From IMG/VR virus record IMGVR_UViG_3300030117_005706, positions 35,879 through 99,878 of that record: 64,000 nt of DNA, one strand, 5' to 3'. The notes under the pieces were generated by a model. That model did no database searches. It worked only from the letters and a program-made list of their open reading frames with translations, and was not told where the DNA came from. The DNA comes from a virus. Made by a program: the position numbers and the translations under genes. Positions within the stretch are counted from its first letter, which is position 1. Every line of letters starts with the position of its first letter. Shown in pieces: positions 26,232-55,952 of the stretch.

Positions 26232-27014
26232 ATGGACCCGTTTGACGCAGCGTGGTCAATTCTCAAAGGAGACTTTATTCTCGGCGGCCAAGACTATGAT
26301 TTAGGTAACTTCGCTGCTGATTACACTGGTCCCGAATACGAGGGCACTCCCTATGAAACAGCCCTTCCGCCCCTTCAACGATTTGAGCGATACGACCCAA
26401 GCAACATGCACCTCGGCACGAAACGAATGATGGTGCCGCAATCCATGGCAAATATCTCGGAAGGTCAAATGTCTCCACGTGTGACTCGTGTAGTAGATAA
26501 TGTTCCGACACAGCAGCCGTACTTCCGTGGTTCGTCGGTGCCCAGTGTGAGAGATGGAGGCTTAGCAGCCGTCAACGTAGCAAGTGTGTTAGCCGACAAA
26601 AAGGTGAGCAACTTCGATGACTTTGCTCGTTTGGTAGGTAGCACGGCGGCGCATGAGGAAGTGCATCGGCTTATCGAACCTGAAATTCATGAATGGTCAG
26701 TGCAGCAGACAGGCGTGAAGAATCACGACCCGGAAGACTTTGAGCACTCGCTGCCTGCCAATCGTGCATTTCTAACCCTTAATTCATTGGGTCACGAGAA
26801 AGGGGCGTTTGCTCTCACACCCGGCATGACTCAAAAAGAAAAAGACAAATTTTTGAGGCGACGTTATGCCTTTTCACCTTACCTCAACCCCATTGGTCGT
26901 GAAAGGCTCATAAATGAACTTCACCTTGCACGAAGCCCTATGCCACCTGACTCGACTCTGACTTTGGACGAGTTGCGAGAGGCTATCGCCGCCCGAATGC
27001 GGCAGCAACAATAA
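26232..27014 (+). CDS. putative zinc metalloprotease with N-terminal AWxILK tag
   Basis: 260 residues. The N-terminus MDPFDAAWSILK is the tag shared by many proteins in this segment. HEEVH (141-145) in a predicted helix (GSTAAHEEVHRLIEPEIHEW) fits the HExxH zinc-binding and catalytic motif of zincins; downstream acidic/His residues (EIHEW; DFEHSLPANRAF) could supply the third ligand. If real, it may act in virion maturation or after injection. No Shine-Dalgarno is visible. First gene of the rightward region. Confidence 0.6.
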   Translation: MDPFDAAWSILKGDFILGGQDYDLGNFAADYTGPEYEGTPYETALPPLQRFERYDPSNMHLGTKRMMVPQSMANISEGQMSPRVTRVVDNVPTQQPYFRGSSVPSVRDGGLAAVNVASVLADKKVSNFDDFARLVGSTAAHEEVHRLIEPEIHEWSVQQTGVKNHDPEDFEHSLPANRAFLTLNSLGHEKGAFALTPGMTQKEKDKFLRRRYAFSPYLNPIGRERLINELHLARSPMPPDSTLTLDELREAIAARMRQQQ

Positions 27015-27042
27015 TATCACACGTCTTCCTCAGACTACCATG
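27014..27042 (+). promoter_or_regulatory. conserved leaderless-type promoter, copy 1
   Basis: AATAATAT is centred about 27 nt before the ATG, followed by CACACGTCTTCCTCAGACTA up to the start. The same sequence with two substitutions precedes the next gene. No Shine-Dalgarno. Confidence 0.6.
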
Positions 27043-27258
27043 TCCAGTCCTGACGAAGCCGCTTGGTTAGTGTTGAAACAACTCTCTTCCTTTCCAATAA
27101 TCAGTACCGGTCAGCCTTGTCAGACCTGTGCGGGTACGGGTAAGATGATGACACCTGTTGGTGCTGCACCTTGCTTCGCTTGTCAAGGTACTGGTAACGA
27201 GACACCGCTGCCTTCGTCACCTACCCCTGACCCTATGACTGGAAGCATTTACCAGTAA
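27040..27258 (+). CDS. tagged small protein with DnaJ-type zinc module
   Basis: 72 residues. N-terminal tag MSSPDEAAWLVLK, then CQTCAGTGKM (about 27-36) and CFACQGTGNE (about 46-55). This is a pair of CxxCxGxG motifs as in the DnaJ zinc domain, which bind one zinc. The C-terminus is Pro/Thr-rich. An adaptor or protein-binding role is possible. Confidence 0.7.
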   Translation: MSSPDEAAWLVLKQLSSFPIISTGQPCQTCAGTGKMMTPVGAAPCFACQGTGNETPLPSSPTPDPMTGSIYQ

Positions 27259-27278
27259 GCAAATCGTCGGATAATTTC

Positions 27279-27307
27279 ATATCACACGTCTGCCTCAGAC
27301 CACCATG
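27279..27307 (+). promoter_or_regulatory. conserved leaderless-type promoter, copy 2
   Basis: ATATCACACGTCTGCCTCAG precedes ACCACCATG and matches copy 1 at 27 of 29 positions. An AT-rich box (AATTTCATAT) is centred about 28 nt before the ATG. No Shine-Dalgarno. Confidence 0.6.
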
Positions 27308-28705
27308 GTCAGCCCTCTTGATGTCGCATGGGACGTTGCTAAGGGTGAACCCTTTCACCCAAGTGTAGCAGGCTACATGGCGGCAGGGCACGGCGGAGAA
27401 CGTGACCGAGCGATTTTGGAAGAAATGCGCCGGATGGAAGAAATTTACGGCACCATGCCACTACACGGAATGGCGGCACTGGAGTTTCACAACAAGTACA
27501 TGGAACTTCAAAATTCACTAAGTGACGACCCGCACGGCCTTCAAACCATGCGTGCTGCAAGGCCGAACGCCGAGCGTGAAAACAGACCTCATAGTTTTCG
27601 GCCCTACGACAGATTTGGTGAGTACGATATTAGTCGACAAAGCACAGACGATATGCCGCCAAGGACAATGCGTTCAGGTGAGCGTGATGCGTTAAGATTA
27701 CGAATGTACAATGCAGGGCGAGGAAAACCAGTAGGTCCGACAGGTGAACTTGACACGCTTGCACATCTTTCGGATGAACCTCTTAGGGCTATCAGAACCG
27801 ACACACAAATTCTTTCTGACGAACTTGACCGTGAACACGAGACACGTTTGCCTGAAATGGGAGACACAGGTCGACTTAACCCTTCGATGTTACGCTCATC
27901 CGACTCTCCCATTGACACGGCTTGGTCAATCCTCAAGGAACTGTCACGTGAAGATTTAGAGATGGCTGCTCGCACAGGCGGTATTCCAATTACGGATGCT
28001 CGTCGACAGGCATTCGCTGATTCTCCCGAAGAACTTTCTCCGACTTTGTTACAAACTATGCGACCTGAATTTTTGCCAATGAACCAACCGATTACGGACG
28101 ACTTCGGCAACATCATCGTCAATCCAAAGCAAACAGGTGGACAGGGTGAATTTGGGGATATGATGCAAGAGTACAACGAAGCCATCTTCCCCGATGAGGA
28201 AGCCGAGTATAGGAGAATCAACGCACCTACACCGGTCAGCACACCGGGAGTCGGCGACCCGAATCGGCGATTCCTTGAGCAACGTCTTCAAGATATGAAT
28301 TACGAAATCGCACAGATGAACGCTGCGGGAATAGACCCACGTACGAACTTGCAACTCAGGAATCTCATGCAAGAGCGTATGAAACTCATGCACCGCATTG
28401 GTCAACGACCTGCACCACAGCCCGGCGTACCGCTACCAATCGAAGAAGCAGGCGATGCTTCAATGCCCGACCCGTCACAGATGGAACACTTGGGCACACA
28501 GTTAGCGCACGCTGACATGATGCGTGACGATTTGGTCGATATGTCAAACGTAGAGAGAGGAGGCATCAATCGACCTGCTTATGATTACATCCGTGAGCGA
28601 TACAAGGCAGCGAGGCCATTCAGTGTTGAAGATATTATGCGACGAATAATGAACGGCGAGCAAGTAAGTGATGAGGAACTGATGTCCTTATCAAGAGTGG
28701 ACTAA
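27305..28705 (+). CDS. tagged virion-region protein with a second internal tag
   Basis: 466 residues. The N-terminal MVSPLDVAWDVAKGEPFHPS (then VAGYM) is shared over 25 residues with the next gene. The block VGPTGELDTLAHLSDE (about 141-156) also recurs there. A second tag, SPIDTAWSILKELS, lies internally at about 200-213, as if two tagged proteins were fused or a polyprotein is processed. The rest is hydrophilic and Met/Arg/Pro-rich, probably largely disordered. No enzymatic motif seen. Confidence 0.7.
   Translation: MVSPLDVAWDVAKGEPFHPSVAGYMAAGHGGERDRAILEEMRRMEEIYGTMPLHGMAALEFHNKYMELQNSLSDDPHGLQTMRAARPNAERENRPHSFRPYDRFGEYDISRQSTDDMPPRTMRSGERDALRLRMYNAGRGKPVGPTGELDTLAHLSDEPLRAIRTDTQILSDELDREHETRLPEMGDTGRLNPSMLRSSDSPIDTAWSILKELSREDLEMAARTGGIPITDARRQAFADSPEELSPTLLQTMRPEFLPMNQPITDDFGNIIVNPKQTGGQGEFGDMMQEYNEAIFPDEEAEYRRINAPTPVSTPGVGDPNRRFLEQRLQDMNYEIAQMNAAGIDPRTNLQLRNLMQERMKLMHRIGQRPAPQPGVPLPIEEAGDASMPDPSQMEHLGTQLAHADMMRDDLVDMSNVERGGINRPAYDYIRERYKAARPFSVEDIMRRIMNGEQVSDEELMSLSRVD
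27889..27937 (+). repeat. 45-nt direct repeat encoding the internal tag (copy 1)
   Basis: The DNA encoding RSSDSPIDTAWSILK is almost identical to 29312-29360 in the next gene; the only differences fall in the codon before AW. Sequence-level conservation means recent duplication or recombination rather than convergence. Confidence 0.8.
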
Positions 28706-28724
28706 AGCAACAAGGAGATGAACT

Positions 28725-29456
28725 ATGACCAATCCTATCGATGTCGCATGGAACGTCGCTAAGGGCGAACCATTTCATCCCAGCGTAGCAGGCTACATGT
28801 CACGGGCAACTCCGGTTGATGACCAATTCGGAGCACCCGTCGCCGGTCGCGTTGAGCGCTCTAACGCTGATGCACTCAACAGAAAACTTAGCCCTACCGG
28901 AGTGCGACCCAGTATGAAAGACATGCAAGAGCGCCAACTTCTATCGCTCCGTCCACCTGTAGTCAGGGAGCGCTTTGATATGGGTACACCCATTTCAGAA
29001 CTACAAGGTGACCGTTCAAAGACACCTGAATATGCTATGGACTTTCACAAAGACCCCAACGCACCAGCAGTAGGTCCAACAGGTGAAATTGACGAGTTCG
29101 CTCATCTTACTGATGCACAGACACCTGTAATTCATACTTATGGGTTTAGCGGGTTTAACGACCCCATGAAGGAGAGACTTTTTGCAATGCGAGACACAGA
29201 CAGCCCACAAAGAATCTCTCCCGAATTTTATCCCGAAGAGTCCGGCATGGATTTTAGAATTGACCGAATGAATCCTCCTTCCCCACTTAACGAGCGCTAC
29301 AACAAATTATTCAGACGCTCATCCGACTCTCCCATTGACTCCGCTTGGTCAATCCTCAAGTTCGGCTATCCGGGGGGAGACGAGAAGGCTATTGGCGAAT
29401 ACTTGGAAGCGCTAAAGCGTGAGCGAATGCACCGAGCGCAACAACTGATGGAGTGA
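28725..29456 (+). CDS. tagged virion-region protein, paralogue of the preceding gene
   Basis: 243 residues. It shares the N-terminal tag block (MTNPIDVAWNVAKGEPFHPS), the VGPTGEIDEFAHLTD block (about 111-125) and an internal tag (DSPIDSAWSILKFGYPG, about 201-217) with the preceding gene. AAGGAG lies 8 nt before the ATG. Function unknown; probably a virion component. Confidence 0.7.
   Translation: MTNPIDVAWNVAKGEPFHPSVAGYMSRATPVDDQFGAPVAGRVERSNADALNRKLSPTGVRPSMKDMQERQLLSLRPPVVRERFDMGTPISELQGDRSKTPEYAMDFHKDPNAPAVGPTGEIDEFAHLTDAQTPVIHTYGFSGFNDPMKERLFAMRDTDSPQRISPEFYPEESGMDFRIDRMNPPSPLNERYNKLFRRSSDSPIDSAWSILKFGYPGGDEKAIGEYLEALKRERMHRAQQLME
29312..29360 (+). repeat. 45-nt direct repeat encoding the internal tag (copy 2)
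   Basis: Partner of the copy at 27889-27937; encodes RSSDSPIDSAWSILK. Confidence 0.8.
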
Positions 29457-29463
29457 TGAACAA

Positions 29464-29850
29464 ATGCAACCAATTGATACAGCATGGAATATACTGAAAG
29501 CACGAACGATACGAGACCAATCTTCAATTCATGGTGAGTATGGGCGACCGGGTAAATTTAGACAGCCACAAACCATGAAAGACATCGAACCACCTCAACC
29601 CGGACCTGCACGTTCAACACAAACCAACAGGATGAAGCGTGAAATGGACCGTCAGCGAAAAGATGCTGAACAAGGCGAAACGCGTGACCCACTCGATATG
29701 TTTGAATTAGAAGACATGGAAAGTCGACCGCCTGAGGCAGTTGACGCTATTGACGCTTCTGAGTTTGACCCACAGACGGCTGAGCAAAAGGCGGCAATCC
29801 GCAGTTACATTGAACAGATGATGCAAAGCGGATTCCCCCCAAAGATGTGA
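29464..29850 (+). CDS. tagged acidic/charged protein
   Basis: 128 residues. Tag MQPIDTAWNILK at the N-terminus, then a charged, probably disordered body (MKREMDRQRKDAEQ) and an acidic C-terminal helix. No enzymatic motif. Overall resembles a packaged or scaffolding-type small protein. Confidence 0.65.
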   Translation: MQPIDTAWNILKARTIRDQSSIHGEYGRPGKFRQPQTMKDIEPPQPGPARSTQTNRMKREMDRQRKDAEQGETRDPLDMFELEDMESRPPEAVDAIDASEFDPQTAEQKAAIRSYIEQMMQSGFPPKM

Positions 29851-29856
29851 TGGCGT

Positions 29857-30297
29857 ATGACATACCCGTTCGATGAGTGGGGTTTCATTTCTCAAATTCT
29901 AAAGCGACAAAGAGAACTGGGTGAATACGACCCTGACTTTCCGAGCACATATGGACCTGTGACAGAATATCACGGTACGACATTCCTACCTGAAATTGAC
30001 ATGGGTGGCTTACAGGGCCAAGTCATGGCTCCCCACAGGGCAGTTCAGCCACCTGACCAGTTCATTGGTCAACCTGTTACGTATACAACAACGGATTATG
30101 ACAAAGCACGTCAGTGGGCTGAACAACAAGCAAAACGTTTCAAGGTCAAAGACCCACGAAGAGTGGGTGTTGTAGGTGTGCGTGGTTCAGGGCTACAGCC
30201 TGCCACAAGCGCTGACCCACGTAGCGGTTTTCAAACGGGAGAAGTACGTGTTCATTCACCCGAAATTCCACGACGCCGGTTGGTTATGATACAATAG
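29857..30297 (+). CDS. putative ADP-ribosyltransferase with N-terminal tag
   Basis: 146 residues. A diverged tag (MTYPFDEWGFISQILKRQ) is followed by an ART-like layout: TEYHGTTFLPEI (37-48, first-strand H of the H-Y-E triad), PVTYTTTDYDKARQWAEQQA (73-92, the Y strand and following helix) and GEVRVHSPEIPRRRL (128-142, the E strand). This order and the YHGT motif are typical of PARP/KptA-like and phage ART domains. A packaged ART would parallel T4 Alt, injected to modify host transcription machinery. The fold assignment is inference from motifs. Confidence 0.55.
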   Translation: MTYPFDEWGFISQILKRQRELGEYDPDFPSTYGPVTEYHGTTFLPEIDMGGLQGQVMAPHRAVQPPDQFIGQPVTYTTTDYDKARQWAEQQAKRFKVKDPRRVGVVGVRGSGLQPATSADPRSGFQTGEVRVHSPEIPRRRLVMIQ

Positions 30298-30327
30298 GAT
30301 TTTTATCTATGACTTCTTAGGCTGGCT

Positions 30328-30645
30328 ATGGACACTCCTTTTGACCACGCATGGGCTATTTTGAAATCAATCCCTCGTGGACCAAACGAGATGCGTGCTT
30401 TAGCGCCGATTCAGGCTGCTCGTGATTTTGTCCACCAACATGGCGACTCAACCGGACCAATGAAGGCACACGCCGACCGTGTGGCAAGGGAATTGCAAGC
30501 ACATCTGTTTGAAGGAGGACCAGCACCTCAACTACCGACCATGGAGCGACAAGCAGGTCGACAAGAATACGGTGGTAACATAGGTGCACCTGAGGGTATG
30601 ACGCCTTCCTATGCCGAAGCGCACATACACGATACCTATGGGTGA
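30328..30645 (+). CDS. tagged small protein ending in YAEAHIHD motif
   Basis: 105 residues. Tag MDTPFDHAWAILKSIPRG at the N-terminus, helical middle, and C-terminal SYAEAHIHDTYG, a peptide that recurs in the 672-residue protein at 41-43 kb. A TATA-like ATTTTTATC is centred 25 nt before the ATG, with no Shine-Dalgarno. Confidence 0.65.
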   Translation: MDTPFDHAWAILKSIPRGPNEMRALAPIQAARDFVHQHGDSTGPMKAHADRVARELQAHLFEGGPAPQLPTMERQAGRQEYGGNIGAPEGMTPSYAEAHIHDTYG

Positions 30646-30651
30646 AAATAT

Positions 30652-30825
30652 ATGACTTGGGCGGAGTACTTGGCTATTGCATTCATCGCTTTTGTAGCGG
30701 GATTTTTGATGATGTGGCTTATCACTGAGGACTTGCGTGACACAACAATTCTTATCACTGAGGAAGAAGTGCAAGAAGATTGCATCGGTGGTTTGCGAAA
30801 TTCCGCTTTCATACAAAAAGATTAA
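30652..30825 (+). CDS. single-pass membrane microprotein
   Basis: 57 residues. The opening MTWAEYLAIAFIAFVAGFLM (1-20) plus MWLI is a transmembrane helix, followed by an acidic tail (ITEEEVQEDC). It sits just after the tagged cluster and before a terminator. A small membrane protein could be a lysis or holin-like factor, but nothing proves this. Confidence 0.6.
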   Translation: MTWAEYLAIAFIAFVAGFLMMWLITEDLRDTTILITEEEVQEDCIGGLRNSAFIQKD

Positions 30826-30833
30826 GTAAATCG

Positions 30834-30873
30834 CCCGAATCAGGATTATCGGGTGAGGGTTGGTTTTTCTTCT
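30834..30873 (+). terminator. stem-loop plus T-rich terminator
   Basis: CCCGA/TCGGG (30834-30853) followed by TTTTTCTTCTT. It closes the tagged-gene cluster before the HMG-CoA lyase gene, which has its own promoter. Confidence 0.65.
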
Positions 30874-30942
30874 TGGGCATCAATTTCAAGACCTATCTCT
30901 TTCATGGTTCTTTCTTCTTTCCAACCCTCATCCACCTGTATC

Positions 30943-30951
30943 GTTAAGTAC
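30943..30951 (+). promoter_or_regulatory. TATA-like box for the HMG-CoA lyase gene
   Basis: GTTAAGTAC is centred 27 nt before the ATG, the spacing expected for a leaderless archaeal transcript. No Shine-Dalgarno is present near the start. Confidence 0.5.
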
Positions 30952-30973
30952 AGTGTATGCCTGTGAATTGAAT

Positions 30974-31813
30974 ATGCGATTGACAGTTTATGAAGTAGGA
31001 CCACGAGACGGATTACAAAATTTACCTGAGTTTGTACCTACGGACGTCAAACGACGACTCATTTCAGAACTGTACAAGTCAGGTATCAAGCACATCGAAG
31101 AGGTTTCGTTCGTACATCCTAAACGTGTACCACAGATGGCCGATGCGGAAGACGTACATGCGTACGGTGCAGCACTGGTCATGAACCCAAAGGGCATGGA
31201 ACGGGCACTAGCGACGGGTGTTAAACTGTTCAACGTGGTGTTTTCTCCATGTGAGACGTTCAACATCAACAACATGGGGCGCACACGCACCGAATTGATA
31301 TACATGTTCAAGAGCATGTTGCAAGATGTACCGAAAGAAAACGTGCGTGTTTACATTTCAATGGCGTTTGGCAGTCCGTATTCAGGCGAAGTCCCACCAT
31401 GCTTACTCAAGCAGTGCGTACGCGATGCTTCGATGCTTGGTTCAACAGTTGTGTTTGCTGACACTGTTGGTACGGGTACACGTGAAGAGATTGCAATCGC
31501 TGCTGAGTATGCACGTGAGTATTCACTTACTTCTGCTTTGCATCTTCATCACAACGAGGGACAAGAAAACGAAGCACTTGAGCGAGTTAAGCATGGCATT
31601 TTTTCAGGTATTGCACAATTTGACTCTAGTATCGGGGGATTAGGTGGATGTCCGTTTGTCGACGGTAGTGGTGGCAACCTCGCTACTGAACGTTTGGTTC
31701 AGTACCTAAACGAGCATGGATTTGACGTGGGCTTTACGGTTGACGATTTGCAGGGTGCACTTGTGTGGGCTGACAAAATCAAAGCCTTGCAAGCACAACC
31801 GACCATCGCGTAG
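30974..31813 (+). CDS. hydroxymethylglutaryl-CoA lyase-like enzyme (auxiliary metabolic gene)
   Basis: 279 residues, TIM-barrel HMGL family. YEVGPRDGLQNL (5-16) is the substrate/metal loop with catalytic Arg-Asp; FVHPKRVPQMADAEDV follows; LHLHHNEGQ supplies the HxH metal ligands; GGLGGCPFVDGSGGNLATE carries the catalytic Cys signature GLGGCP. All key residues are intact, so cleavage of HMG-CoA to acetoacetate and acetyl-CoA is plausible. Known HMG-CoA lyases act in leucine breakdown; in archaea HMG-CoA is also the precursor of isoprenoid lipids. I chose the ATG at the family's normal N-terminus; the longer frame upstream would start in the terminator. Confidence 0.9.
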   Translation: MRLTVYEVGPRDGLQNLPEFVPTDVKRRLISELYKSGIKHIEEVSFVHPKRVPQMADAEDVHAYGAALVMNPKGMERALATGVKLFNVVFSPCETFNINNMGRTRTELIYMFKSMLQDVPKENVRVYISMAFGSPYSGEVPPCLLKQCVRDASMLGSTVVFADTVGTGTREEIAIAAEYAREYSLTSALHLHHNEGQENEALERVKHGIFSGIAQFDSSIGGLGGCPFVDGSGGNLATERLVQYLNEHGFDVGFTVDDLQGALVWADKIKALQAQPTIA

Positions 31814-31830
31814 ATTAAATATAGGACACT
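31814..31830 (+). promoter_or_regulatory. TATA promoter, leaderless type
   Basis: ATTAAATA (31814-31821), followed by TAGGACACTA, centred 24 nt before the next ATG. The TAGGACACTA continuation recurs before the gene at 35445. Confidence 0.65.
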
Positions 31831-31841
31831 AATCGCTATTC

Positions 31842-31982
31842 ATGGGTCGCAGTCGAAGCCCCGCATGTCCCGACTGTAGTACCCGCCCTACTCAACGATT
31901 GTACATCAAAACCAAAGGTCAGAACAAGCAAGAAGGATTTGCTTGGCACTGTCCCGCCTGCGAATGCATGTGGAAACAATAA
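31842..31982 (+). CDS. zinc-ribbon microprotein
   Basis: 46 residues: basic start, CPDC (9-12) and CPAC (38-41) in a typical ribbon. Expressed from its own leaderless-type TATA promoter directly after the lyase gene. Possibly a small transcription-associated or nucleic-acid binding factor; unproven. Confidence 0.65.
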   Translation: MGRSRSPACPDCSTRPTQRLYIKTKGQNKQEGFAWHCPACECMWKQ

Positions 31983-32008
31983 AATCATGTGGCTTTCTGT
32001 GACACCAC

Positions 32009-32323
32009 ATGGCGGACGCTTTTGAAGATGCTTGGGAAATTCTCAAGGGTAAGAGGAAGTCGAAGCCGTTTCACGGGTATAATCCAAACAAGCACAGTAA
32101 AAAAGGCGGACTGAACGCCAAAGGTCGTGCTGCTGCAAAGCGCAAAACAGGTGCGAACCTCAAACCACCTGTTACAACAAAGCCAAGTAAACTCAAACCC
32201 GGTGGCAAAAAGGCCAAGCGACGAAAGTCGTTTTGTGCACGAATGGCAGGCGTTAAGGGACCAACCAGCAAGAAAGGCAAATTGACGCCAAAGGGTGCAG
32301 CCCTGAAAAGGTGGAATTGCTGA
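32009..32323 (+). CDS. tagged basic protein, DUF6321-like
   Basis: 104 residues. Tag MADAFEDAWEILKG, then a Lys/Arg-rich body ending in RRKSFCARMAGVKGPTSKKG and a terminal LKRWNC. This matches the basic family I know as DUF6321 in marine phages and large DNA viruses (GLxAKGRAxxxRxTGxNLKxPV, then RRKSFCARMxG). Strong positive charge suggests packaged DNA- or RNA-binding. TATA-like AATAAAATC lies 26 nt before the ATG. Confidence 0.75.
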   Translation: MADAFEDAWEILKGKRKSKPFHGYNPNKHSKKGGLNAKGRAAAKRKTGANLKPPVTTKPSKLKPGGKKAKRRKSFCARMAGVKGPTSKKGKLTPKGAALKRWNC

Positions 32324-33261
32324 TGTCTTGGTTTGAAATCCTGAAACAAAAAGACATTGACTTGGTGCTTCCGCAAGGTAAGCAAATGGTTTTGAAAGCC
32401 GATGACAAGAAGTATGAGCGTGGCCTTCTTGTCAAATTGCTAAAGAGTGGAGCGTACGAAATGGCATATTGGTACGATGAACATAAACCATACCCAATCG
32501 AAATACTGGTCGATGGCAAGTCCGTCAAAAAGGATGCAAAAAAGGTCACTATGAAATTCCATCCTGAGTTGAAGAAGTCCGTGTTTGTTAAGCGTATACA
32601 GTCACCTGAGGCTAAGCGGCACAAAGTCGAGTACGATACTCAGTATGAATCGTCACCAAAACGTGTCAAATACCGTGAAGAGTTGAATCAAGAACGCCGG
32701 AAGCGTGGGATGTACGGAGATGGAAGTCATCGTGACATCAGTCACACACAAGGTAACAAACTGACAGTTGAAGACGAGCACGATAACCGTGCACGTCACT
32801 TCAAAGGCAAAGGTACTTTGCGCCCTGTGAAAAAGGCCGAACTCAAGAGAAACGGAGTTACCGTAACTCACGACGAATGCAAAGACATCGAAGAGAAAAT
32901 ACTACGTGAAGTTGAAAAAGAAGGTGGTGCATTGGGTATGAAAAATTTAAAGGGCATTGCTCCGCCTCAAAAATTAGAAATGGTGTTGCAAGACATGATG
33001 AAACGAGGAAAAATCAAAGAGCACAGGCACGGCGACTTTTATACGGACCAACCCAACAAAAAAATGCAAAAATCTTGTGACTGCGAGCATTGTGCAGGTA
33101 TGCACGCTGCTATCGACCTGTTAGAAAAGAAACTGTGCCCAGCAGGTAAGGCAGCAGCAAAGCGCAAATTCAAAGTTTACCCTTCGGCTTACGCTAACGG
33201 ATGGGCAGTTCAATACTGTCGCGGTAAGTTCCGTGGTAAGAAAAAGGGGAAGAAGAAATGA
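32323..33261 (+). CDS. basic protein with C-terminal VYPSAYAN domain
   Basis: 312 residues from the ATG that overlaps the upstream stop (TGATG). It opens MSWFEILKQ, a shortened tag. Basic body, a helical region with possible winged-helix character (about 190-245, GGALGMKNLKGIAPPQKLEM), a CDCEHC cluster, and a C-terminal segment CPAGKAAAKRKFKVYPSAYA that recurs in many marine virus proteins of unknown function. Probably DNA-associated. Confidence 0.7.
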   Translation: MSWFEILKQKDIDLVLPQGKQMVLKADDKKYERGLLVKLLKSGAYEMAYWYDEHKPYPIEILVDGKSVKKDAKKVTMKFHPELKKSVFVKRIQSPEAKRHKVEYDTQYESSPKRVKYREELNQERRKRGMYGDGSHRDISHTQGNKLTVEDEHDNRARHFKGKGTLRPVKKAELKRNGVTVTHDECKDIEEKILREVEKEGGALGMKNLKGIAPPQKLEMVLQDMMKRGKIKEHRHGDFYTDQPNKKMQKSCDCEHCAGMHAAIDLLEKKLCPAGKAAAKRKFKVYPSAYANGWAVQYCRGKFRGKKKGKKK

Positions 33262-34163
33262 GCAAAGTCGTCGTCCGCAAGAACTTGAACCGATGGTTCA
33301 AAGAAAAGTGGGTCGACGTCTCACGTCGTGATAAGGACGGCAAGCACCCTCCGTGCGGTCGTAAGAAAGCAAAGAAGGGCAGCAAAGGCTATCCGAAGTG
33401 CCGACCGTCGGTCAAGGTTAGCAGTAAGACGCCCAAGACTAGCGGAGAAATGACAAGCGGTCAAAAGCGTGCAGCGACCAAGCGCAAGCGAAGCAAGAAA
33501 CAAGGCGTAGGCGGTAAGCCGACGATTGTCAAGCAAGATTATCCCTTTGAAGCAGTTGACACCGCAGCACCTGACCCAGTTGTTGATACGTTTGTGTCGA
33601 TGCATCGAAAGGTCCCTACAAAAATGAGGCAGTTTGAAGCAATGGAGCGTGCACGTAAAGACCCACTTACACATCCGGGCTTTAGTGCAAGCGACATTTT
33701 TGATACATCCCTCGGCCAAGCACAAGCGGTCGAGCCTACGATAGCGGGTACGAATGCTCCTTTCACTCAACCTAACCCTCGTCCTACGATTTTTGGTCAA
33801 CAATTTCAAATTGCTGACCCCAAGCAAATGAGCCGAATCTATCGTATGAGAGATGACACACACAGGGAAGGTGTTCACGACGGAATGGTGGCTGCCGAAG
33901 AATTACAGATGCCAAGAGTACAAACACAACTTGTCACTCCACTTGATAGGAACAAACTTGACCCACAGGGGTTTTATGGAGACGCCATGGTCAATCTCCC
34001 CTCATTCCGTGGTATGCCCTTCAACGAAGAAACGTATTTCACTACAGGCGAGCCTATGGACTTGGCATTCAGGTTGCTCAAGCGAGACATGTCGCATTGC
34101 AACTGCAACGCTCCCAAAGGCTTTTCGTGCCGAGCACACTGCAAGAGCAAGGGGAAGCGATGA
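33258..34163 (+). CDS. DUF5872-like basic protein with C-terminal tag
   Basis: 301 residues. The N-terminal 90 residues (KEKWVDVSRRDKDGKHPPCG, then YPKCRPSVKVSSKTPKTSGE and AATKRKRSKKQGVGG) match the family I know as DUF5872, found in marine phages and large algal viruses. The C-terminus has a tag variant, TGEPMDLAFRLLKRD, followed by CNCNAPKGFSCRAHC, a probable zinc knuckle. The tag is near the end here instead of the start. Confidence 0.7.
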   Translation: MSKVVVRKNLNRWFKEKWVDVSRRDKDGKHPPCGRKKAKKGSKGYPKCRPSVKVSSKTPKTSGEMTSGQKRAATKRKRSKKQGVGGKPTIVKQDYPFEAVDTAAPDPVVDTFVSMHRKVPTKMRQFEAMERARKDPLTHPGFSASDIFDTSLGQAQAVEPTIAGTNAPFTQPNPRPTIFGQQFQIADPKQMSRIYRMRDDTHREGVHDGMVAAEELQMPRVQTQLVTPLDRNKLDPQGFYGDAMVNLPSFRGMPFNEETYFTTGEPMDLAFRLLKRDMSHCNCNAPKGFSCRAHCKSKGKR

Positions 34164-34366
34164 GCATGTTACCACATTGGGTCGTCACTGCGTATGACTA
34201 CATGCTGTGTCAAATCGAAAAGTGTGTGGACATACTTGAGGAGAATGTCGACGAACATCCTGAACTCATCGTTGACTTGATTGAGGCTCAGGAGTACTTT
34301 ACGTTCATGCGTAAGAAGTACAGAACGATGGTAGAGGAGGGTGATATGTTTGTCTACGCCGATTGA
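34160..34366 (+). CDS. small acidic helical protein
   Basis: 68 residues from MSMLPHWVVTAYDYM; the ATG overlaps the upstream stop (ATGA) after GGGGAAGCG. Acidic helix pair; no family recognised. Confidence 0.6.
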   Translation: MSMLPHWVVTAYDYMLCQIEKCVDILEENVDEHPELIVDLIEAQEYFTFMRKKYRTMVEEGDMFVYAD

Positions 34367-35366
34367 TGCAGCCTTCTCAGTTCTCAAGCCTGAGGAGGAA
34401 GTTCGTAAGATTCTTCCTTTAGCCGCCGCTTTACCGTACGTTATACCTGCGGCAGCAGCAATATATGGTGGTATTCAGGGCGCCAAGAACGTTCGTGAGA
34501 ACAGAATTACTGACCCTGTACTTGGCGTAGTGTCAAGAGAAGGAGACGACTCGGCACTAAGCAACTTGGCTGAATTTGGAACAGGTTTTGCACAAGGCTT
34601 TGTTCCGGGTAAAGCAGCGAAAGCGGGCGCACGAGCAGGCGGTAAAGCACTTGCAGGTCGAACTGCAAAGAGAGCAGCGCAAAAAGAGGCTACACGTAAC
34701 ACTCAACGGGCGGCTACTGAACGAGCCTTGACTCAACAGTACATGGGTCAAGGGATGAATCGGGCAGGGGCAACCAAGCACGCACAGTACATGTCACGGC
34801 AAATTCATCCAACTACTCCAATATCTGCATCGCCCGGTATCGGTAGTCGCACACTTACTGGACTTGGGCAACCGATGGGTCGATTAGCACCAGCCGTTGC
34901 AGTCGGAGGTGGCATGGCTTACGCAGGCAAACAAATTGCTGACGCTCTTGGCAACATGTCCGTGGGCGGAGGCGGTGCAGCAGCACCCTCAGGTAGCGGT
35001 ATGGGCGGAGGTCAACAACAACAACGAACACAGTCTAACCTTGGTGACCCTTCGGGCGGCGTCCAAAACATTCAAAACCGAAACCCTTCTGCAACAGATG
35101 AAGACGCCATTTGGGAAGCAGGCGGACGCGGCACATTCAAACAAAAAGGTGAAACCATGACATTTACACACTACGACGGCAACGAAATGCTTCGCAAGAC
35201 TCTTGAAGACCTCGACAAAATGCACTGTGGTACAGAACAAAAGGCCGAAGAAGACAAAGGTGGCAAGAAATCTAAGAAGCCTGCACACGGCATGGTTATC
35301 GTCATCGGCTCCAAAGGCTCAGGCCCCGGTCCTTCGACCAACGGCAAGCGTGATTCCAAGGACTGA
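34350..35366 (+). CDS. tagged Ala/Gly-rich virion-region protein
   Basis: 338 residues with a TTG start, chosen because GAGGAGG lies 9 nt upstream and the protein then begins with the tag (STPIDAAFSVLKPEEEV). A hydrophobic segment LPLAAALPYVIPAAAAIYGG (about 22-41) may insert into a membrane. Then come a basic Ala/Arg-rich region, Gly-rich low complexity and a Lys-rich tail. It could be a membrane-active injected protein. Confidence 0.65.
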   Translation: MSTPIDAAFSVLKPEEEVRKILPLAAALPYVIPAAAAIYGGIQGAKNVRENRITDPVLGVVSREGDDSALSNLAEFGTGFAQGFVPGKAAKAGARAGGKALAGRTAKRAAQKEATRNTQRAATERALTQQYMGQGMNRAGATKHAQYMSRQIHPTTPISASPGIGSRTLTGLGQPMGRLAPAVAVGGGMAYAGKQIADALGNMSVGGGGAAAPSGSGMGGGQQQQRTQSNLGDPSGGVQNIQNRNPSATDEDAIWEAGGRGTFKQKGETMTFTHYDGNEMLRKTLEDLDKMHCGTEQKAEEDKGGKKSKKPAHGMVIVIGSKGSGPGPSTNGKRDSKD

Positions 35367-36005: not shown

Positions 36006-36016
36006 GGTGACCCCGC

Positions 36017-36265
36017 ATGGGTCGTATTTTCAAAACGCCGACTGATGACAGCACGGAGGCTACGCTTCGCGCTATGCACATAGCGAACACGGTCGACACT
36101 GCTTATGAACGAGCGTGGGGTTGGCTCAAGGCTCTTGTGTTTTCAATAGCATCAGCACTCACTGTTAGCGCAGTCGAGTTTCATAGCGATTGGAGTCTTT
36201 GGGACTCAACCGCACAGTGGTTTGGCGAGAAATTGTCGAACTGGCTTGGTGGTTGGTTCAATTGA
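36017..36265 (+). CDS. small membrane-associated protein with internal tag-like helix
   Basis: 82 residues. VDTAYERAWGWLKALVFSIA (about 25-44) combines a tag-like ERAWGWLK with a hydrophobic stretch; the rest is amphipathic (WFGEKLSNWLGGWF). GAGGTGAC precedes the start. Its stop overlaps the TTG start of the GTPase gene. Confidence 0.55.
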   Translation: MGRIFKTPTDDSTEATLRAMHIANTVDTAYERAWGWLKALVFSIASALTVSAVEFHSDWSLWDSTAQWFGEKLSNWLGGWFN

Positions 36266-36978
36266 GTGCAGCGGCAGGCTCAGCAATGGTCGGCGGATTG
36301 GTTTTTGCACGAGAGTTGTATCACTATTGGGTGCCTCGTCGTGTCGGAATTTACGGTCCAACCATGGTTGGTAAAACAACACTCGACAAATATCTCACCA
36401 CACCCGGTGAAATGGAAGACATACCCGTCGAAAACCGAACATCACACACAAAAATACTGGGCAAGTACTTGTTGCCACGTGCAACACGTAAGAGAGTTCG
36501 ATGGAAAGGTGAGCGTCGGGTCGTTCACTCATCAGATATGGGTGGAGAAGAACGATTTTGGAATCTTTGGATTGATGATATGGTTAATCGTAACGTTGAA
36601 TCTGTTGTGTTTATGTTTGACCATCGTGTACGTTTAGGTGGCGAACCTGCTTTGCAAGCAGTGGCTGGATTCAAATTTTTATGTGATGCACTCATTCATC
36701 GTCAGTATCGATACAGGACACTCCGTGCACGACTACGTGGTAAGAAATACTGTCCCAAAACGATTCTCCTTGTTGCAAACAAAGCCGACCAATGGTGGGA
36801 TGACCAAGCGAATGTTCTTTGGCAACAACAACGACTAGGTGAACACAAAATCTTTGACCCGTTCCGAGAAGACCTTGTACGACTACAAAAAGCGGGCATA
36901 CCGACCATGCGTTCAATGATGGCAACACGCATCGGTTGGAACGTCGAAAATACAATGATTGACTTACTTTCGTCATAG
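36262..36978 (+). CDS. Ras/Arf-like small GTPase with N-terminal hydrophobic anchor
   Basis: 239 residues from a TTG overlapping the upstream stop (GGTGG upstream); an earlier TTG would lengthen the hydrophobic segment. After SAAAGSAMVGGLVFAREL come G1 GPTMVGKT (32-39), switch I region with Thr (58-63), G3 DMGGEERFW (92-100) and G4 NKAD (173-176). DxGGxE followed by W recalls the Arf/SR-beta group; the domain length fits a small GTPase. Likely a membrane-tethered molecular switch. It is unusual among virion genes of a tailed virus. Some phage P-loop ATPases look alike, but the combination of G1, G3 and G4 argues for GTP binding. Confidence 0.8.
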   Translation: MSAAAGSAMVGGLVFARELYHYWVPRRVGIYGPTMVGKTTLDKYLTTPGEMEDIPVENRTSHTKILGKYLLPRATRKRVRWKGERRVVHSSDMGGEERFWNLWIDDMVNRNVESVVFMFDHRVRLGGEPALQAVAGFKFLCDALIHRQYRYRTLRARLRGKKYCPKTILLVANKADQWWDDQANVLWQQQRLGEHKIFDPFREDLVRLQKAGIPTMRSMMATRIGWNVENTMIDLLSS

Positions 36979-37026
36979 GGAAGACTTTTGAAATAGTACG
37001 CTAACAGGTTATCAGGGGGAGATGTA

Positions 37027-38001: not shown

Positions 38002-38009
38002 GTGAACAT

Positions 38010-38633: not shown

Positions 38634-38634
38634 G

Positions 38635-39140: not shown

Positions 39141-39201
39141 GTGCTGTTTTTCGCACCCTCTTTGATAAAACCTTATCGTTGACAGTTACCTGCCCTTACG
39201 C

Positions 39202-39903
39202 ATGGGGGGTCGTCAGACAAAATTGTCATGTGCTTTTTGTCAGGATGAGAACCGTGATGAACTTGAGGAACAAATAGCCTCAGGAATCGTCGATATGCGC
39301 GTACTGGACCGTGATAAAGGGTGGAGAACCAATACGGCTGAGAGACATATGCGAAACCATGCAGGCGAAAACGTCACTGGTTCTAATTACCGATGCCCAA
39401 TATGCACCTCAGACAACCGAGGATTGTACGAAGTCGCTTACTTTGACGAGGGCATGACCACAGAAGAGATAGCAAACGAGGTCGATTGTTCAGAAGATGC
39501 GGTATATCGGCATATGAAAGAGCATTTTCAGCCACTTGTACGCCGTTCCTCGACTGCGGTCGTTTCAATCAAGGTTGGTGAAGAACTCGGAGTCATACGA
39601 AACAATACAGAAAAGTTGAACGAGAAGTTGACTCGATACATGGACGAGGTCAGCATTCACGATGACAACGCTATAGGTGATATGGTACGCCTCAACAAAG
39701 AGATTCGTGAGTCAATCAAAGACCTCATGGCATTCCAATCACAATGGGCACAGCCTGAGGAAAAGACTGTGACCAATACCATCAACATCCTGAAAGTTGA
39801 AATGGCGAAGGAGAGTCCCGAAACATGGATGCGAGTGCGTGAAGCACTTCTTCGTGGCGATTCTGACGTTCTTGATGTGATTGATGAAGGGGAGGTGGAC
39901 TGA
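39202..39903 (+). CDS. putative terminase small subunit (zinc finger plus HTH)
   Basis: 233 residues. CAFCQDENRDELEEQIASG (10-28) and YRCPICTSDN (63-72) look like zinc-binding units. Then a helix-turn-helix: EGMTTEEIANEVDCSEDAVY (83-102) with RHMKEHF. The C-terminal half is coiled coil and helical. Position at the head of the packaging genes, DNA-binding HTH plus oligomerising helices fit TerS. Assignment is by architecture and synteny. Confidence 0.6.
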   Translation: MGGRQTKLSCAFCQDENRDELEEQIASGIVDMRVLDRDKGWRTNTAERHMRNHAGENVTGSNYRCPICTSDNRGLYEVAYFDEGMTTEEIANEVDCSEDAVYRHMKEHFQPLVRRSSTAVVSIKVGEELGVIRNNTEKLNEKLTRYMDEVSIHDDNAIGDMVRLNKEIRESIKDLMAFQSQWAQPEEKTVTNTINILKVEMAKESPETWMRVREALLRGDSDVLDVIDEGEVD

Positions 39904-41057
39904 TGCCAAGTGGATTCGGAGGTATGGGACGTGGCTCTGATACCCGTATGTATGCTCCCCGTTCAGAATCGAGTCGTATGTACGCATCCGATGACGAGGA
40001 TTCGTACAGGCATGGCGCAGGCGATGCCGAAGAACAGGAGCGTCGACGTGACGAAAAGATGCGTAAGCGTGAAGAAACGAAAGTCGTTAGCGATACACCG
40101 CATCTTCAAATCAGCATCGACAAACCTGATGAAGACCCGATGATGGGTGGCATGGAAGAACCTCAAGAAGAGGAAGACCCGAACATGTACAATCCTGAAC
40201 AGGACGCTATGGCATCCGATATGTCGGCTATGGCAGGCGCACTCGGCACAGGTGGACCTGATTTGTCTCAAGCACTCGGTGCTCAGACAAACGGTGTCAT
40301 GGGCGGCTATCGACCACTGGTTGCTACAGGTGAGCCGATGGACGACGCTTGGTCGACGTTGATGAAGAGTAGTTTGAAAAACATAAAGCCGAAGCAAAAC
40401 AAACCGTGGCAACAACATCAATTTGACCCTCCACCCGGTGGGCGCCGACCTGATTTAGCCACATCATTGAGAGGCAGTCGACAGGCACGTACACTCAGTC
40501 CACGCACAGAACATGGTGGAACAACCGAAGCACCACTTGCTGTTGAGATGGGTCACTTGGCATTGACGACCAAGCAACCGCTACGCATGTTCCCCGGTAA
40601 ATACCGACAGCAACTCGGTCAGCGACAGCAACATTCGCTAATGGGTAACATCACCATGCCCTACCAAACACACAACATCGAGCAACGTACACCTACAAAG
40701 CCCGGACCAATGGGTGCAGGTAAGATAATCGGTATGCCAACTGGCAAAGGGCGCTCAAAAGCAGTAGCCAAGTCAGAACTCCAAGAAATGAACACACTGC
40801 TCAAGTCAGCAAAAGACTATCTTCACATCTCACAACTCCGAAGAATGATTCGTGATTTGAAGAAAATCGTCGAGCGACAAGACCGAATGAAGAAAGCACC
40901 TCTTTCCCGTGGTAGCAAGAAGAATAAGGAGGCAGGTCATCGAGGAGAAACAACGAACCCGCAAGGCGGAACTGATAGCACTGATTCCGACGAGATGTCA
41001 TCATCAGGTATGCCCGGTCACGTCTTTGCAGCACGTGGTAGCGGGAGAGTGGGCTGA
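39903..41057 (+). CDS. virion-region protein with internal tag
   Basis: 384 residues, mainly disordered and charged. The tag variant TGEPMDDAWSTLMKSS lies at about 143-158, in the same TGEPMD context as the C-terminal tag of the 33.3-34.2 kb protein. C-terminal basic coiled coil (ISQLRRMIRDLKKIVERQDR). TGATG overlap with TerS. Function unknown. Confidence 0.65.
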   Translation: MPSGFGGMGRGSDTRMYAPRSESSRMYASDDEDSYRHGAGDAEEQERRRDEKMRKREETKVVSDTPHLQISIDKPDEDPMMGGMEEPQEEEDPNMYNPEQDAMASDMSAMAGALGTGGPDLSQALGAQTNGVMGGYRPLVATGEPMDDAWSTLMKSSLKNIKPKQNKPWQQHQFDPPPGGRRPDLATSLRGSRQARTLSPRTEHGGTTEAPLAVEMGHLALTTKQPLRMFPGKYRQQLGQRQQHSLMGNITMPYQTHNIEQRTPTKPGPMGAGKIIGMPTGKGRSKAVAKSELQEMNTLLKSAKDYLHISQLRRMIRDLKKIVERQDRMKKAPLSRGSKKNKEAGHRGETTNPQGGTDSTDSDEMSSSGMPGHVFAARGSGRVG

Positions 41058-43075: not shown

Positions 43076-44043
43076 TGAGCAAGATTCTTGTGAAGGCTTC
43101 GCCTCAGATTCAAATTGGACCTGACGGTAAGCCTCAGATGTACTACAACATCGGCTTTGGCGGACGACGTGGGGGAGGCGATGGAGCACGTGGTCGTACA
43201 AAGCGAAGTTATGCAGGTAGTATAGCAGGTGGAACACTGGGCGCACTCGGAGGACTTGCAGGTGAGTCGCGAAGTCTTGGCGGGTTTTTATCAAATCTTC
43301 AAGTCGGTGCTATGCAAGGTGGTGCTTTGGGTCGACGAATTGCTGACTCTCGTTTGGTAACACCACGTCGACGACAAGCACGTGCTGATTTGGTTGAAGG
43401 CCAAAAACAAGCGAGAGCACGTTCTGATGCCGAAGCCCGATTAGCAGGCGAAAGAGAAATGAAACGACGAAGAGGGTTTGACCGTCGTGACCTTTCATTA
43501 GAACAAATACGAGACATGGGTCCCTCTCCGGACAGAAGAAGAATACTACCCGGCATAGGTCGTAGAAACATGACGCAGTTTGGGCGTGACTTAGCAGCCT
43601 TCCAATCAGAACAGGAAGCGGCTGCTGCCGAACAAGCGAAGCAAGAAAAACTTCGTGCAAGAGGTCGTCGACGAGATGACGACCCTGCTGTACAAGCAGT
43701 GCGAAACATAGACCCGGAGCGACTACGAGCAGCACAACAGGTGTTGGCTAACGCTGGTATACAGGCACCGCAACAACAGCCACAGGCGCCTCAGCAAATT
43801 GTTCCGCTTTCTCAAGAGACACAAAATCAAATCACTCAAGGTGACACCCAGCCTCCAGTTGATGCACCTTTCGCTGACCATGATTCAGAACAGAACAGTG
43901 CAGGGCAAGTTGGAGAAGGCGAAATGCCTGAAAGCGAAGGCGGAGAACCGTCGCAGCCGACATCAACACGAATGGGGCGACTTGGAGACAAAGAGCGAGA
44001 GTTGTCCGAACTGTTTTTGAGGCAGGGGGCGGAGAATGAGTGA
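43075..44043 (+). CDS. Gly/Arg-rich virion-region protein
   Basis: 322 residues from the ATG overlapping the upstream stop (TGATG), with GGAGGGG 5 nt upstream. Gly-rich segment with GxxxG spacing (AGSIAGGTLGALGGLAGESR) suggests membrane or oligomer packing; then Arg-rich helices, a Gln/Pro-rich linker and an acidic tail. No family recognised. Confidence 0.6.
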   Translation: MSKILVKASPQIQIGPDGKPQMYYNIGFGGRRGGGDGARGRTKRSYAGSIAGGTLGALGGLAGESRSLGGFLSNLQVGAMQGGALGRRIADSRLVTPRRRQARADLVEGQKQARARSDAEARLAGEREMKRRRGFDRRDLSLEQIRDMGPSPDRRRILPGIGRRNMTQFGRDLAAFQSEQEAAAAEQAKQEKLRARGRRRDDDPAVQAVRNIDPERLRAAQQVLANAGIQAPQQQPQAPQQIVPLSQETQNQITQGDTQPPVDAPFADHDSEQNSAGQVGEGEMPESEGGEPSQPTSTRMGRLGDKERELSELFLRQGAENE

Positions 44044-45535
44044 CGCTGAGGGTGTTAAGGCACTCGTTGACGAAATCGACATGGAGATGTCGAAGAAGTC
44101 GTTCAAGTTCTTTTTCACTGAGATTCTTGGTTTTGACTACGCCGACCATCACGAAGCGTGGGACCAAGGTTTGAACGGTCACCGATACTATTGCGTCAAA
44201 GCGAGCCGTGACCACGGCAAGTCTGTATTCTTCATGTCGTATGCTCTATGGATTGCAGCGTTCAATCCAAACACGCATATCATGGTGTTCAGCCACTCGC
44301 TTGAACAGACGCTTGAGCACATGCGATTCATTCGTAGCAACATCGACATGGCCGACATTCTCAAACCACTCAAGCCCTCAGGCAAACCTTGGGCAAAATC
44401 CTACTTTGAGTTCACCAACGGTAGCCGTATCATGGCAAAGTCCGTTGGTGGTGCTACTCGTGGTTTCCACCCGGACGTGGTCGTGTGCGATGACATCCTG
44501 TGGGGAACCACAGCGTCTGAACTTCAACGTGCAGCCGACTGGTTCTATACCGTTCTTCTCCCTGTTCTTCACCACACAGGTCGAATGATGATGGTCGGTA
44601 CACCGTTTTCGTACAACGACCTGTACGCTGAACTTGAACAGAAGGACACGTTCCAAGTCGAAACCTATCCCGCTATCTTAGAGAATGGTGAACCGCTGTG
44701 GCCCGGACGTTGGCCTCTCGACGCACTCCGAATGCGTGAACAATCAATGCCTGCTATCAAATTCGCTCGTGAGTATCTGTGTGAACCGATTCACGACAAC
44801 TCCAGTATGTTCCCTAACAGCCTGTTGGAAAAAGCACGGGACGAAAGCCTCGTATTGCTTGACCACGCTGAGCAAGAGTTCGACGAAGAAGGCAACGCAG
44901 CAGGTGTATTCGGTCAACACTTTGTCGGCTGGGACCCTGCGATTGCCAGTGACAGCAACGCTGACTATACGGCGATGGTCATCTTACGTATGCTTCCCGA
45001 TTCTGAGGAGAAGCAAATGGTCCACGTTATCAATCAAAAAGGATTGAGTGGAGCAGCACAGAAAAAGAACATCCTTCTCATCAACAATCGATTCCAACCT
45101 GACTTGATTGAACTTGAGGGCAACAATTTTCAGCGCATGTTTGCAGCCGAATTGCAAGATATGCGAGATGACATCCCCATCAAAACATTTATGACCACAA
45201 AGCAGCGCAAGGAAAGTATGTTCATGTCGCTGCTGATGGCCTTTGAGCAAGGCAAAATCAGAACGCCATGGGGCAATGAGCGTAGCAAGGAGTACACACG
45301 TGAACTTGAGAAGCAACTCAGTCGCTTTGGTATGACCAAGAGTGGTAAGTTGGAATCGGTCGGTTCGCACGATGACTTGGCTATGGCGATTGCGTTGGCG
45401 AACTGGGCAACCAAAGAATTTCGTGGCAGCGTTATACTTCTTGATGATGAGTTGCCCGGATTTGACAAGTGGTTTCTTGATGCACCCGGACGTGGTGCTG
45501 AGCGCATGACAGGAGATGATTGGTTTGTTGCTTGA
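44036..45535 (+). CDS. terL: terminase large subunit (packaging ATPase-nuclease)
   Basis: 499 residues, standard TerL length. ATPase: Walker A KASRDHGKS (55-63), Walker B DVVVCDD (147-153), coupling motif around MMVGTP (185-190). RNase H-like nuclease: VGWDPAIASDSNADYTAMV (298-315, first Asp), a central Glu near LIELEGNN (357-364) and SHDDLAMA (444-451, last Asp pair). It pumps and cuts genome concatemers at the portal. 8-nt overlap with the upstream gene. Confidence 0.96.
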   Translation: MSDAEGVKALVDEIDMEMSKKSFKFFFTEILGFDYADHHEAWDQGLNGHRYYCVKASRDHGKSVFFMSYALWIAAFNPNTHIMVFSHSLEQTLEHMRFIRSNIDMADILKPLKPSGKPWAKSYFEFTNGSRIMAKSVGGATRGFHPDVVVCDDILWGTTASELQRAADWFYTVLLPVLHHTGRMMMVGTPFSYNDLYAELEQKDTFQVETYPAILENGEPLWPGRWPLDALRMREQSMPAIKFAREYLCEPIHDNSSMFPNSLLEKARDESLVLLDHAEQEFDEEGNAAGVFGQHFVGWDPAIASDSNADYTAMVILRMLPDSEEKQMVHVINQKGLSGAAQKKNILLINNRFQPDLIELEGNNFQRMFAAELQDMRDDIPIKTFMTTKQRKESMFMSLLMAFEQGKIRTPWGNERSKEYTRELEKQLSRFGMTKSGKLESVGSHDDLAMAIALANWATKEFRGSVILLDDELPGFDKWFLDAPGRGAERMTGDDWFVA

Positions 45536-46274
45536 CCCGTTTGAAGTAGCGTGGATGCTGCTCAAGCAGTCAAAGGAAGAACAGTTGCGTCAGGCTATTC
45601 AACAGCGAAAGCGAGAAATAGAAACACAAGAACATCAACTCGAAACAAATTCTGACTACGTCAATGCCTTAATGGGTGTCACACCTGAGTCTCTTGAAGG
45701 ATTAAAAAGAGGTCTTGAGCACTTTGAACAAGAATTGGAAGATTATATGGGTGGTCGTGGTGCAAAAGAAGCCGAGCGAAAGAAAGAGCGAACTCGTGAA
45801 AAAGAACTCAAGCGTCAAGAATTTTTGGAACAGTCTCGTAAACTTAGCGAGCAACGACAACAATCAGCACAAGCGAAGGACGATGCACGTGTTCAAGCCG
45901 AGAAAGATGCCGAAGATGCAAAGCGTCGAGCGCAAGAAGAAAAGCACGAAGCAAAGCGAATCAAAGATGAAAAGAAGCGAGAATATCAAGAGCGTAGGCT
46001 AAGGCGTGAAGGCAAAGAGCCTGAACAAGCCACTGCTATCGAAGACCCTGACGCTTCAATCGAAAGTGTTCTTGAAGAGTTGAATCGCCGTGAACAGGCG
46101 AAGTTGGGAGAAGCAAAGAAACCTCCTACTGTTCAACCCTCTCGACGTGTTGCTGTCCGCCGTCCCCCTTCGCCTCCTTCTAAGGATGAGGAAGATGATG
46201 GAAAAGAAGACTGGGAACGAGTCTTAGAGGAAATGTCAGGTACATTTGACTACGACCCATACGGAGATGATTGA
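45525..46274 (+). CDS. tagged coiled-coil protein
   Basis: 249 residues with a TTG start (or the next TTG codon) chosen because GGAG is 9 nt upstream and the protein then begins with the tag LLDPFEVAWMLLKQSKEE. The rest is an almost uninterrupted charged coiled coil (about 20-175) and a Pro-rich, acidic C-terminus. Located between terminase and portal; may be a scaffold-like or packaged rod. Confidence 0.7.
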   Translation: MLLDPFEVAWMLLKQSKEEQLRQAIQQRKREIETQEHQLETNSDYVNALMGVTPESLEGLKRGLEHFEQELEDYMGGRGAKEAERKKERTREKELKRQEFLEQSRKLSEQRQQSAQAKDDARVQAEKDAEDAKRRAQEEKHEAKRIKDEKKREYQERRLRREGKEPEQATAIEDPDASIESVLEELNRREQAKLGEAKKPPTVQPSRRVAVRRPPSPPSKDEEDDGKEDWERVLEEMSGTFDYDPYGDD

Positions 46275-46275
46275 G

Positions 46276-55929: not shown

Positions 55930-55952
55930 GAATGACACCTGTAAGGACTACA

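Follow-up and report, generated by a model that had tools for sequence, protein, structure and literature searches.

What is the role of a short peptide that recurs on many otherwise different proteins of a single virus? The question is raised by a 64,000-nucleotide stretch of DNA (the window, i.e. the whole stretch analysed; G000:C1:35879-99878 within the 103,328-base virus record IMGVR_UViG_3300030117_005706). Proteins encoded in its virion part carry the motif [ETNSD]-P-[FILM]-[DE]-x-A-[WF]-x-(x)-Phi-Phi-K, in which Phi is a hydrophobic residue; G or S often stands before internal copies. The source genome appears to be of magrovirus type, its gene set and marine relatives fitting viruses of marine group II (MGII)/Poseidoniales archaea. 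Magroviruses are tailed viruses thought to infect abundant ocean archaea. They are reported (PMC10160649) to occur widely and may rank third in abundance among planktonic marine viruses. The peptide is read here, with moderate confidence, as a capsid-targeting (head-loading) tag of magroviruses, through which proteins would be packaged and then cleaved. This reading is favoured because it best explains the placement at protein termini, the internal strings of copies, the gene position and the types of cargo.

An earlier note on this DNA had claimed fifteen copies. All of its peptides are indeed encoded there, on the + strand, and 13 of them are clear copies; YPFDEWGFISQILK contains an insertion, and MSWFEILK is degenerate. 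The 13 score 23-31 with the first-round profile, and noise elsewhere in the whole genome reaches at most 14.2; this profile was partly built from window copies, and the relatives serve as the independent test. MSWFEILK (32323) is without half of the motif and is missed by the profile. A further full copy, MTPMDEAWLILK, is encoded beyond the window, at record position 19884, after a 5307-residue tail protein. The sole exception to the score gap in the whole genome is a portal match, NIMDDAFLILVK at 48009, which was rejected as an ordinary portal segment: it is recognisable in halovirus portals, and the HVTV-1 portal has DIQSFDDGWLIFERAY at that place. The copies are as follows.

26232..26267, + strand: tag MDPFDAAWSILK, N-terminus of a 260-residue HExxH-containing protein
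27040..27078, + strand: tag MSSPDEAAWLVLK on a 72-residue DnaJ-type zinc protein (DnaJ_CXXCXGXG, E=1.7e-5, below the curated cut-off)
27305..27343, + strand: tag MVSPLDVAWDVAK on a 466-residue protein, a paralogue of the 243-residue protein
27905..27937, + strand: internal tag SPIDTAWSILK in the 466-residue protein
28725..28763, + strand: tag MTNPIDVAWNVAK on the 243-residue protein
29328..29360, + strand: C-proximal tag SPIDSAWSILK in the 243-residue protein
29464..29499, + strand: tag MQPIDTAWNILK on a 128-residue protein
29857..29904, + strand: divergent tag MTYPFDEWGFISQILK on a 146-residue ADP-ribosyltransferase (ART)-like protein; homologues have MTPMDEAWxILK
30328..30366, + strand: tag MDTPFDHAWAILK on a 105-residue protein
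32009..32047, + strand: tag MADAFEDAWEILK on a basic DUF6321 protein (DUF6321, E=6.7e-17)
32323..32346, + strand: degenerate tag MSWFEILK on a 312-residue protein
34050..34082, + strand: C-proximal tag EPMDLAFRLLK in a DUF5872 protein
34356..34388, + strand: tag TPIDAAFSVLK close to the N-terminus of a 341-residue protein
39903..41057, + strand: tag-bearing hub gene, 384 residues; homologues in most magrovirus records examined
40332..40367, + strand: internal tag EPMDDAWSTLMK in the hub protein
45534..45566, + strand: tag DPFEVAWMLLK close to the N-terminus of a 252-residue protein after terL

The relatives comprise 80 found via the portal protein and extra contigs from pattern scans, all sharing the magrovirus head genes listed further below. 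Among their 17,257 open reading frames (ORFs), the iterated profile finds 738 copies at a score of at least 13; decoys number three in reversed and four in shuffled proteins. Distinct contexts (n=564) divide into 210 N-terminal, 311 internal and 43 C-terminal ones, and as many as eight copies occur in a single protein (L118). In 187 of the 210 N-terminal copies, at most one residue separates Met from the residue preceding Pro, and 15 of the 43 C-terminal copies end at K plus two residues; this spacing argues that what sits at the termini is the peptide and not a domain. A Lys, which the profile does not score, follows 97% of copies within two residues. The Phi-Phi-K tail is present in 532 of 547 tags, with Lys at W+4 or W+5, and the tag seems to have two parts, P-[FILM]-[DE]-x-A-[WF] and then Phi-Phi-K. 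In hub proteins E-P-M is nearly invariant (66 homologues), and the hubs of relatives hold up to three tags. Low-confidence models of the ART-like and hub proteins place the tag as a helix outside the confidently folded parts. The hub model is poor (predicted local distance difference test, pLDDT, 52; predicted template modelling score, pTM, 0.20), and its tag is a low-confidence helix in a probably disordered region. The sequence ahead of internal copies is also patterned, with a hydrophobic residue at -4 and G/S at -1 in about 85%, and T/K/A/M at -2; N-terminal copies do not have this context.

The position of the tagged genes is described relative to the head genes, all of which lie on the + strand of the window.

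44036..45535, + strand: terminase large subunit, TerL (terL; phrog_38, E=1e-60)
47583..49343, + strand: portal protein (phrog_18178, E=6e-67)
55932..57395, + strand: prohead protease, with Peptidase_S78 at residues 30-184 and a scaffold-like C-terminal part
57411..58508, + strand: HK97-fold major capsid protein (MCP; SU10_MCP, E=2.9e-12; phrog_24667, E=1e-58)

These four were assigned by library match; thermosome- and polymerase-like early genes were recognised by reading only. The magrovirus gene set used for comparison consists of the HK97 MCP, portal, TerL, S78 protease, B-family polymerase and chaperonin of MGII viruses. Of the 133 copies counted across 10 near-complete genomes, 105 fall in the zone from the early module to terL. 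The head region holds eight more and the tail region nine, and another eight are in the interval from the giant tail protein to the early genes; three copies run on the opposite strand, still within the cargo zone. The early module yields three weak, non-canonical matches, none of them convincing. The earlier note had placed the copies in the virion half and none among early genes, and had named equal frequency in early genes as grounds for abandoning its idea; every real copy of the source genome does lie in the late (virion) part, and none of the 133 copies is a convincing early one. Its suggested profile scan of related virus genomes, run here together with gene position, finds the tag many times and mostly in the zone from the early genes to terL.

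The tag is restricted to one lineage in the material searched. All tag-rich contigs examined are magrovirus, either by homology or by sharing a contig with a magrovirus locus. In cellular genomes (one genome per species, 85,000 species), EPM[DE]xAWxPhi-L-K occurs twice only, at chance level, and both matches (L368, L369) are short non-gene ORFs. The match in L207 was set aside as transposase-like on reading its sequence. No convincing tag was found in the regions of HVTV-1, HCTV-1 and vir519 with related MCP and portal. When cellular contigs were searched with the portal in order to find a host, no relatives turned up.

The same distribution could reflect a different partner, with the peptide docking its carriers on a virion component of the tail or baseplate, or on a host protein after entry. 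Seventeen of the 133 copies are in the tail region or behind the giant tail protein, and lineage restriction cannot separate a viral from a host receptor because virus and host ranges coincide. However, most copies adjoin terL and the head genes, tagged genes lie on the late strand and in the late region rather than in the early module, and DUF6321 cargo is encoded in the head cluster of other phages. Such a partner is therefore considered unlikely.

Under the head-loading reading, the bodies behind the tag are the cargo. They include DUF6321 and DUF5872 (basic), DnaJ-type zinc, zinc ribbon, SLOG, HD/SpoT-like and GTP-binding-like proteins and many unknown families; HExxH occurs 24 times in tagged ORFs. 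The model of the ART-like 146-residue protein reaches pLDDT 77 and its top fold matches are mostly ADP-ribosyltransferases, but ART identity is suggestive only, because the best fold-search E is 0.13. The ART-like module is found free-standing behind the tag, or behind DUF5872 plus tag. The DUF6321 protein of pelagiphage HTVC119P is untagged, and its gene has the scaffold gene on one side and the capsid gene on the other, so this body is head-associated in other phages; in P-TIM68, a protein ending in a DUF6321 domain precedes terL. PADLOC finds no defence family among 123 tagged proteins. Two observations stand beside these. The DUF6321 proteins of L175, L182 and L163 start with CDCCSPSTQAFGTLxEDxFEKGKKK, a decayed tag-like sequence and perhaps an eroding tag. 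One tagged protein in the A1 member set matches RelA/SpoT (TIGR00691, E=4e-8); if it is true cargo, it would be a carried alarmone enzyme.

The Phi-Phi-K end of the tag recurs at candidate maturation sites of the head proteins. The conserved pattern, Phi-Phi-K with a small and an acidic residue behind it in that order, is seen in the MCP, at either end of the S78 domain, and in a 126-residue and an 1803-residue protein; the full pattern was found in none of the early families.

49968..49976, + strand: 126-residue head-cluster protein, residues 80-82 ILK/DE (cut after K), candidate site; K in 60/60
55296..55304, + strand: 1803-residue protein, residues 1596-1598 LAK/AD (cut after K), candidate site; K in 59/60
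55503..55511, + strand: 1803-residue protein, residues 1665-1667 MLK/GD (cut after K), candidate site; K in 56/60
56010..56018, + strand: protease residues 27-29 LLK, candidate self-cleavage site at the S78 domain start; K in 56/56
56469..56477, + strand: protease residues 180-182 ILK, candidate site at the S78 domain end; ILK in 56/56
57504..57512, + strand: MCP residues 32-34 LLK/AD (cut after K), candidate maturation site; [LI]LK then AD in 38/38

Halovirus MCPs (36% identity) keep K-A-D at the site aligned with MCP residues 32-34 (SKAD in HVTV-1 and HCTV-1), and where the MCP matches capsid chain 6j3q, a solved structure, the match starts downstream of it. The acidic position is weaker at protease residues 27-29. 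At the S78 domain end, the context is NPEATFRILK, then ED, with the putative cut point after K. Trimming after Phi-Phi-K by the prohead protease is plausible; the trimming proposed in the earlier note thereby gains indirect support from the Phi-Phi-K shared with candidate MCP and protease sites, the cut itself being predicted.

These shared sites also suit a rival explanation, in which the peptide is mainly a substrate or exosite of the maturation protease, i.e. a processing signal, and head entry occurs by other means. The protease's own NPEATFRILK (then ED) resembles the whole tag, Phi-Phi-K is common to the tags and the conserved MCP and protease sites, and internal tags separate modules. 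Yet trimming 12 N-terminal or two C-terminal residues would serve no obvious purpose unless the peptide acts first, and the conserved P-Phi-D-x-A-W exceeds a cleavage site, the MCP site being without it. A purely processing role is judged quite improbable.

The modules themselves bear on whether the peptide acts as a protein at all. Tag contexts adjoin 724 protein modules, which fall into 259 groups without detectable similarity, and the modules have clearly been shuffled together with tags. Such shuffling is what a recombination joint without a protein role would produce, but the invariant P, A, L and D residues are encoded by freely differing synonymous codons, even inside a single genome as well as from genome to genome, which argues for selection on the peptide and against a DNA repeat; a joint of this kind is very improbable. 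The claim in the earlier note that the bodies are unrelated holds for the 259 groups, but the pair encoded at 27305 and 28725 is paralogous, with AKGEPFHPSVAGYM and GPTGE.D in common. Despite that pair, a single divergent homologous domain (another of the note's grounds for abandoning its idea) or a chance motif can be dismissed, as an alignment of the 123 tagged proteins conserves little beyond the consensus MxPxDxAWxLLK, the modules form so many groups, and decoys number only three to four.

Several known systems resemble the head-loading tag in part. In phage T4, the internal set includes small basic proteins and the ADP-ribosyltransferase Alt. The T4 capsid-targeting sequence (CTS) is an N-terminal peptide of about 10 residues on unrelated internal proteins (IPI-III and related); its N-terminal portion does the targeting, and it is processed at residues 8 and 10, following Glu (PMC9026906). 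The magrovirus tag is likewise a short N-terminal peptide on unrelated bodies (210 contexts), and a targeting part followed by a processing part is predicted from its sequence. It differs in ending in Lys, in its Peptidase_S78 protease, with no Glu rule or gp21-type protease, in its many internal, C-terminal or repeated copies, and in its far more numerous cargo families; no sequence similarity was seen. Because T4 membership fails on Glu cleavage and protease type, the tag is to be called CTS-like; it would be analogous to the T4 CTS, and homology is not claimed.

In phage P1, an N-terminal signal of DarB, of which 30 residues suffice for a reporter, sends this large defence protein into the head (PMC9024508). 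DarB shows a second independent case of head-targeting logic like that of the T4 CTS. In contrast to magroviruses, the P1 signal is longer, cargo proteins are few and the MCP is cut between E120 and S121; no shared motif was seen. In the giant phages SPN3US and phiKZ, many head proteins are ejected with the DNA, and the prohead protease removes N-terminal propeptides (PMC10052503). Their propeptides differ in being mostly 111-254 residues long and cut after A-X-E, and most of their head proteins are uncut. Short portable terminal peptides also bring unrelated proteins into the shells of bacterial microcompartments and encapsulins; the encapsulin shell has the HK97 fold, and encapsulin cargo peptides are usually C-terminal. 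An HK97-type MCP is encoded in the window, and only 43 of 564 tag contexts are C-terminal. Encapsulins and microcompartments are also cellular compartments with no DNA or maturation protease, and their sequences differ. The Druskaviridae HVTV-1 and HCTV-1 have a portal, MCP and protease related to the magrovirus ones and keep the K-A-D of the MCP, but their late regions have no convincing tag.

A mechanism for head loading can be proposed. Before the head closes, the short helix P-Phi-D-x-A-W would dock on a component of the procapsid interior; candidate partners are the MCP, the scaffold part of the protease gene, the portal and the 1803-residue protein. Self-repeats (a cohesin-like array) were sought in the candidate receptor proteins, and none were found. 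Docking would carry in each tagged protein, or a string of tag-joined modules. At copies that are N-terminal or internal, the S78 prohead protease would then cut behind Phi-Phi-K and so free the cargo and separate the modules; C-terminal copies would need no cut. The cargo (basic DNA-binding-like, ART-like, metallopeptidase-like and SpoT-like proteins) may finally be injected together with the DNA. A broader version is offered more tentatively: any protein with the 12-residue tag, including polyproteins with up to eight tags, might be loaded, cut by the S78 protease and injected. If so, the region from the early genes to terL would be an exchangeable cargo cassette.

The packaging tag suggested in the earlier note fits the gene position, the restriction to one lineage, the placement at protein ends and the cargo types; packaging itself is what we infer from them. 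Some observations weigh against the reading. About half of the copies are internal, unlike in T4. The residues after Lys in tags fit the putative cleavage consensus partly (P1' A/G/S/E in 54-57%, P2' D/E in 24-37%). An MCP Phi-Phi-K-E-E (residues 144-146) lies inside the fold, where cutting is unlikely. Finally, the W+5 Lys belongs mostly to one family, 127 of 142 cases being hub proteins, and separable docking and cleavage halves are for this reason only modestly argued.

A literature search, with subscription papers outside its reach, found no description of the tag; as far as the searched literature shows, it would be the first address of this kind reported in these archaeal viruses. Most virion-region genes of magroviruses are unannotated, and the tag gives a sequence-only way to list likely internal, injected proteins, bringing hundreds of unknown modules together. 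It also offers a portable label to load cargo into an archaeal capsid. Head loading as proposed predicts cleavage after Phi-Phi-K.

Several neighbouring genes deserve mention. Within the cargo zone, an untagged HMGL-like (HMG-CoA lyase family) gene at window 30860-31813 (PF00682, E=1.8e-18) is a possible metabolic gene. A 262-residue protein of the virion part (window 36190-36978) has the small-GTPase-like motifs GPTMVGKTT, DMGGEERF and NKAD and no Pfam match. An HNH-endonuclease domain lies in a conserved gene at window 46246-47586, between the tagged 252-residue gene and the portal; HVTV-1 likewise has an HNH gene between terL and portal. Ahead of the window, a thermosome-like chaperonin gene (G000 23881-25392) stands among the early genes, with 41-55% identity in relatives. 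The first and last ORFs of the G000 record (132-611 and 102815-103294) are near copies, and the repeat opens with an 83-base exact stretch; the genome is therefore probably complete and terminally redundant.

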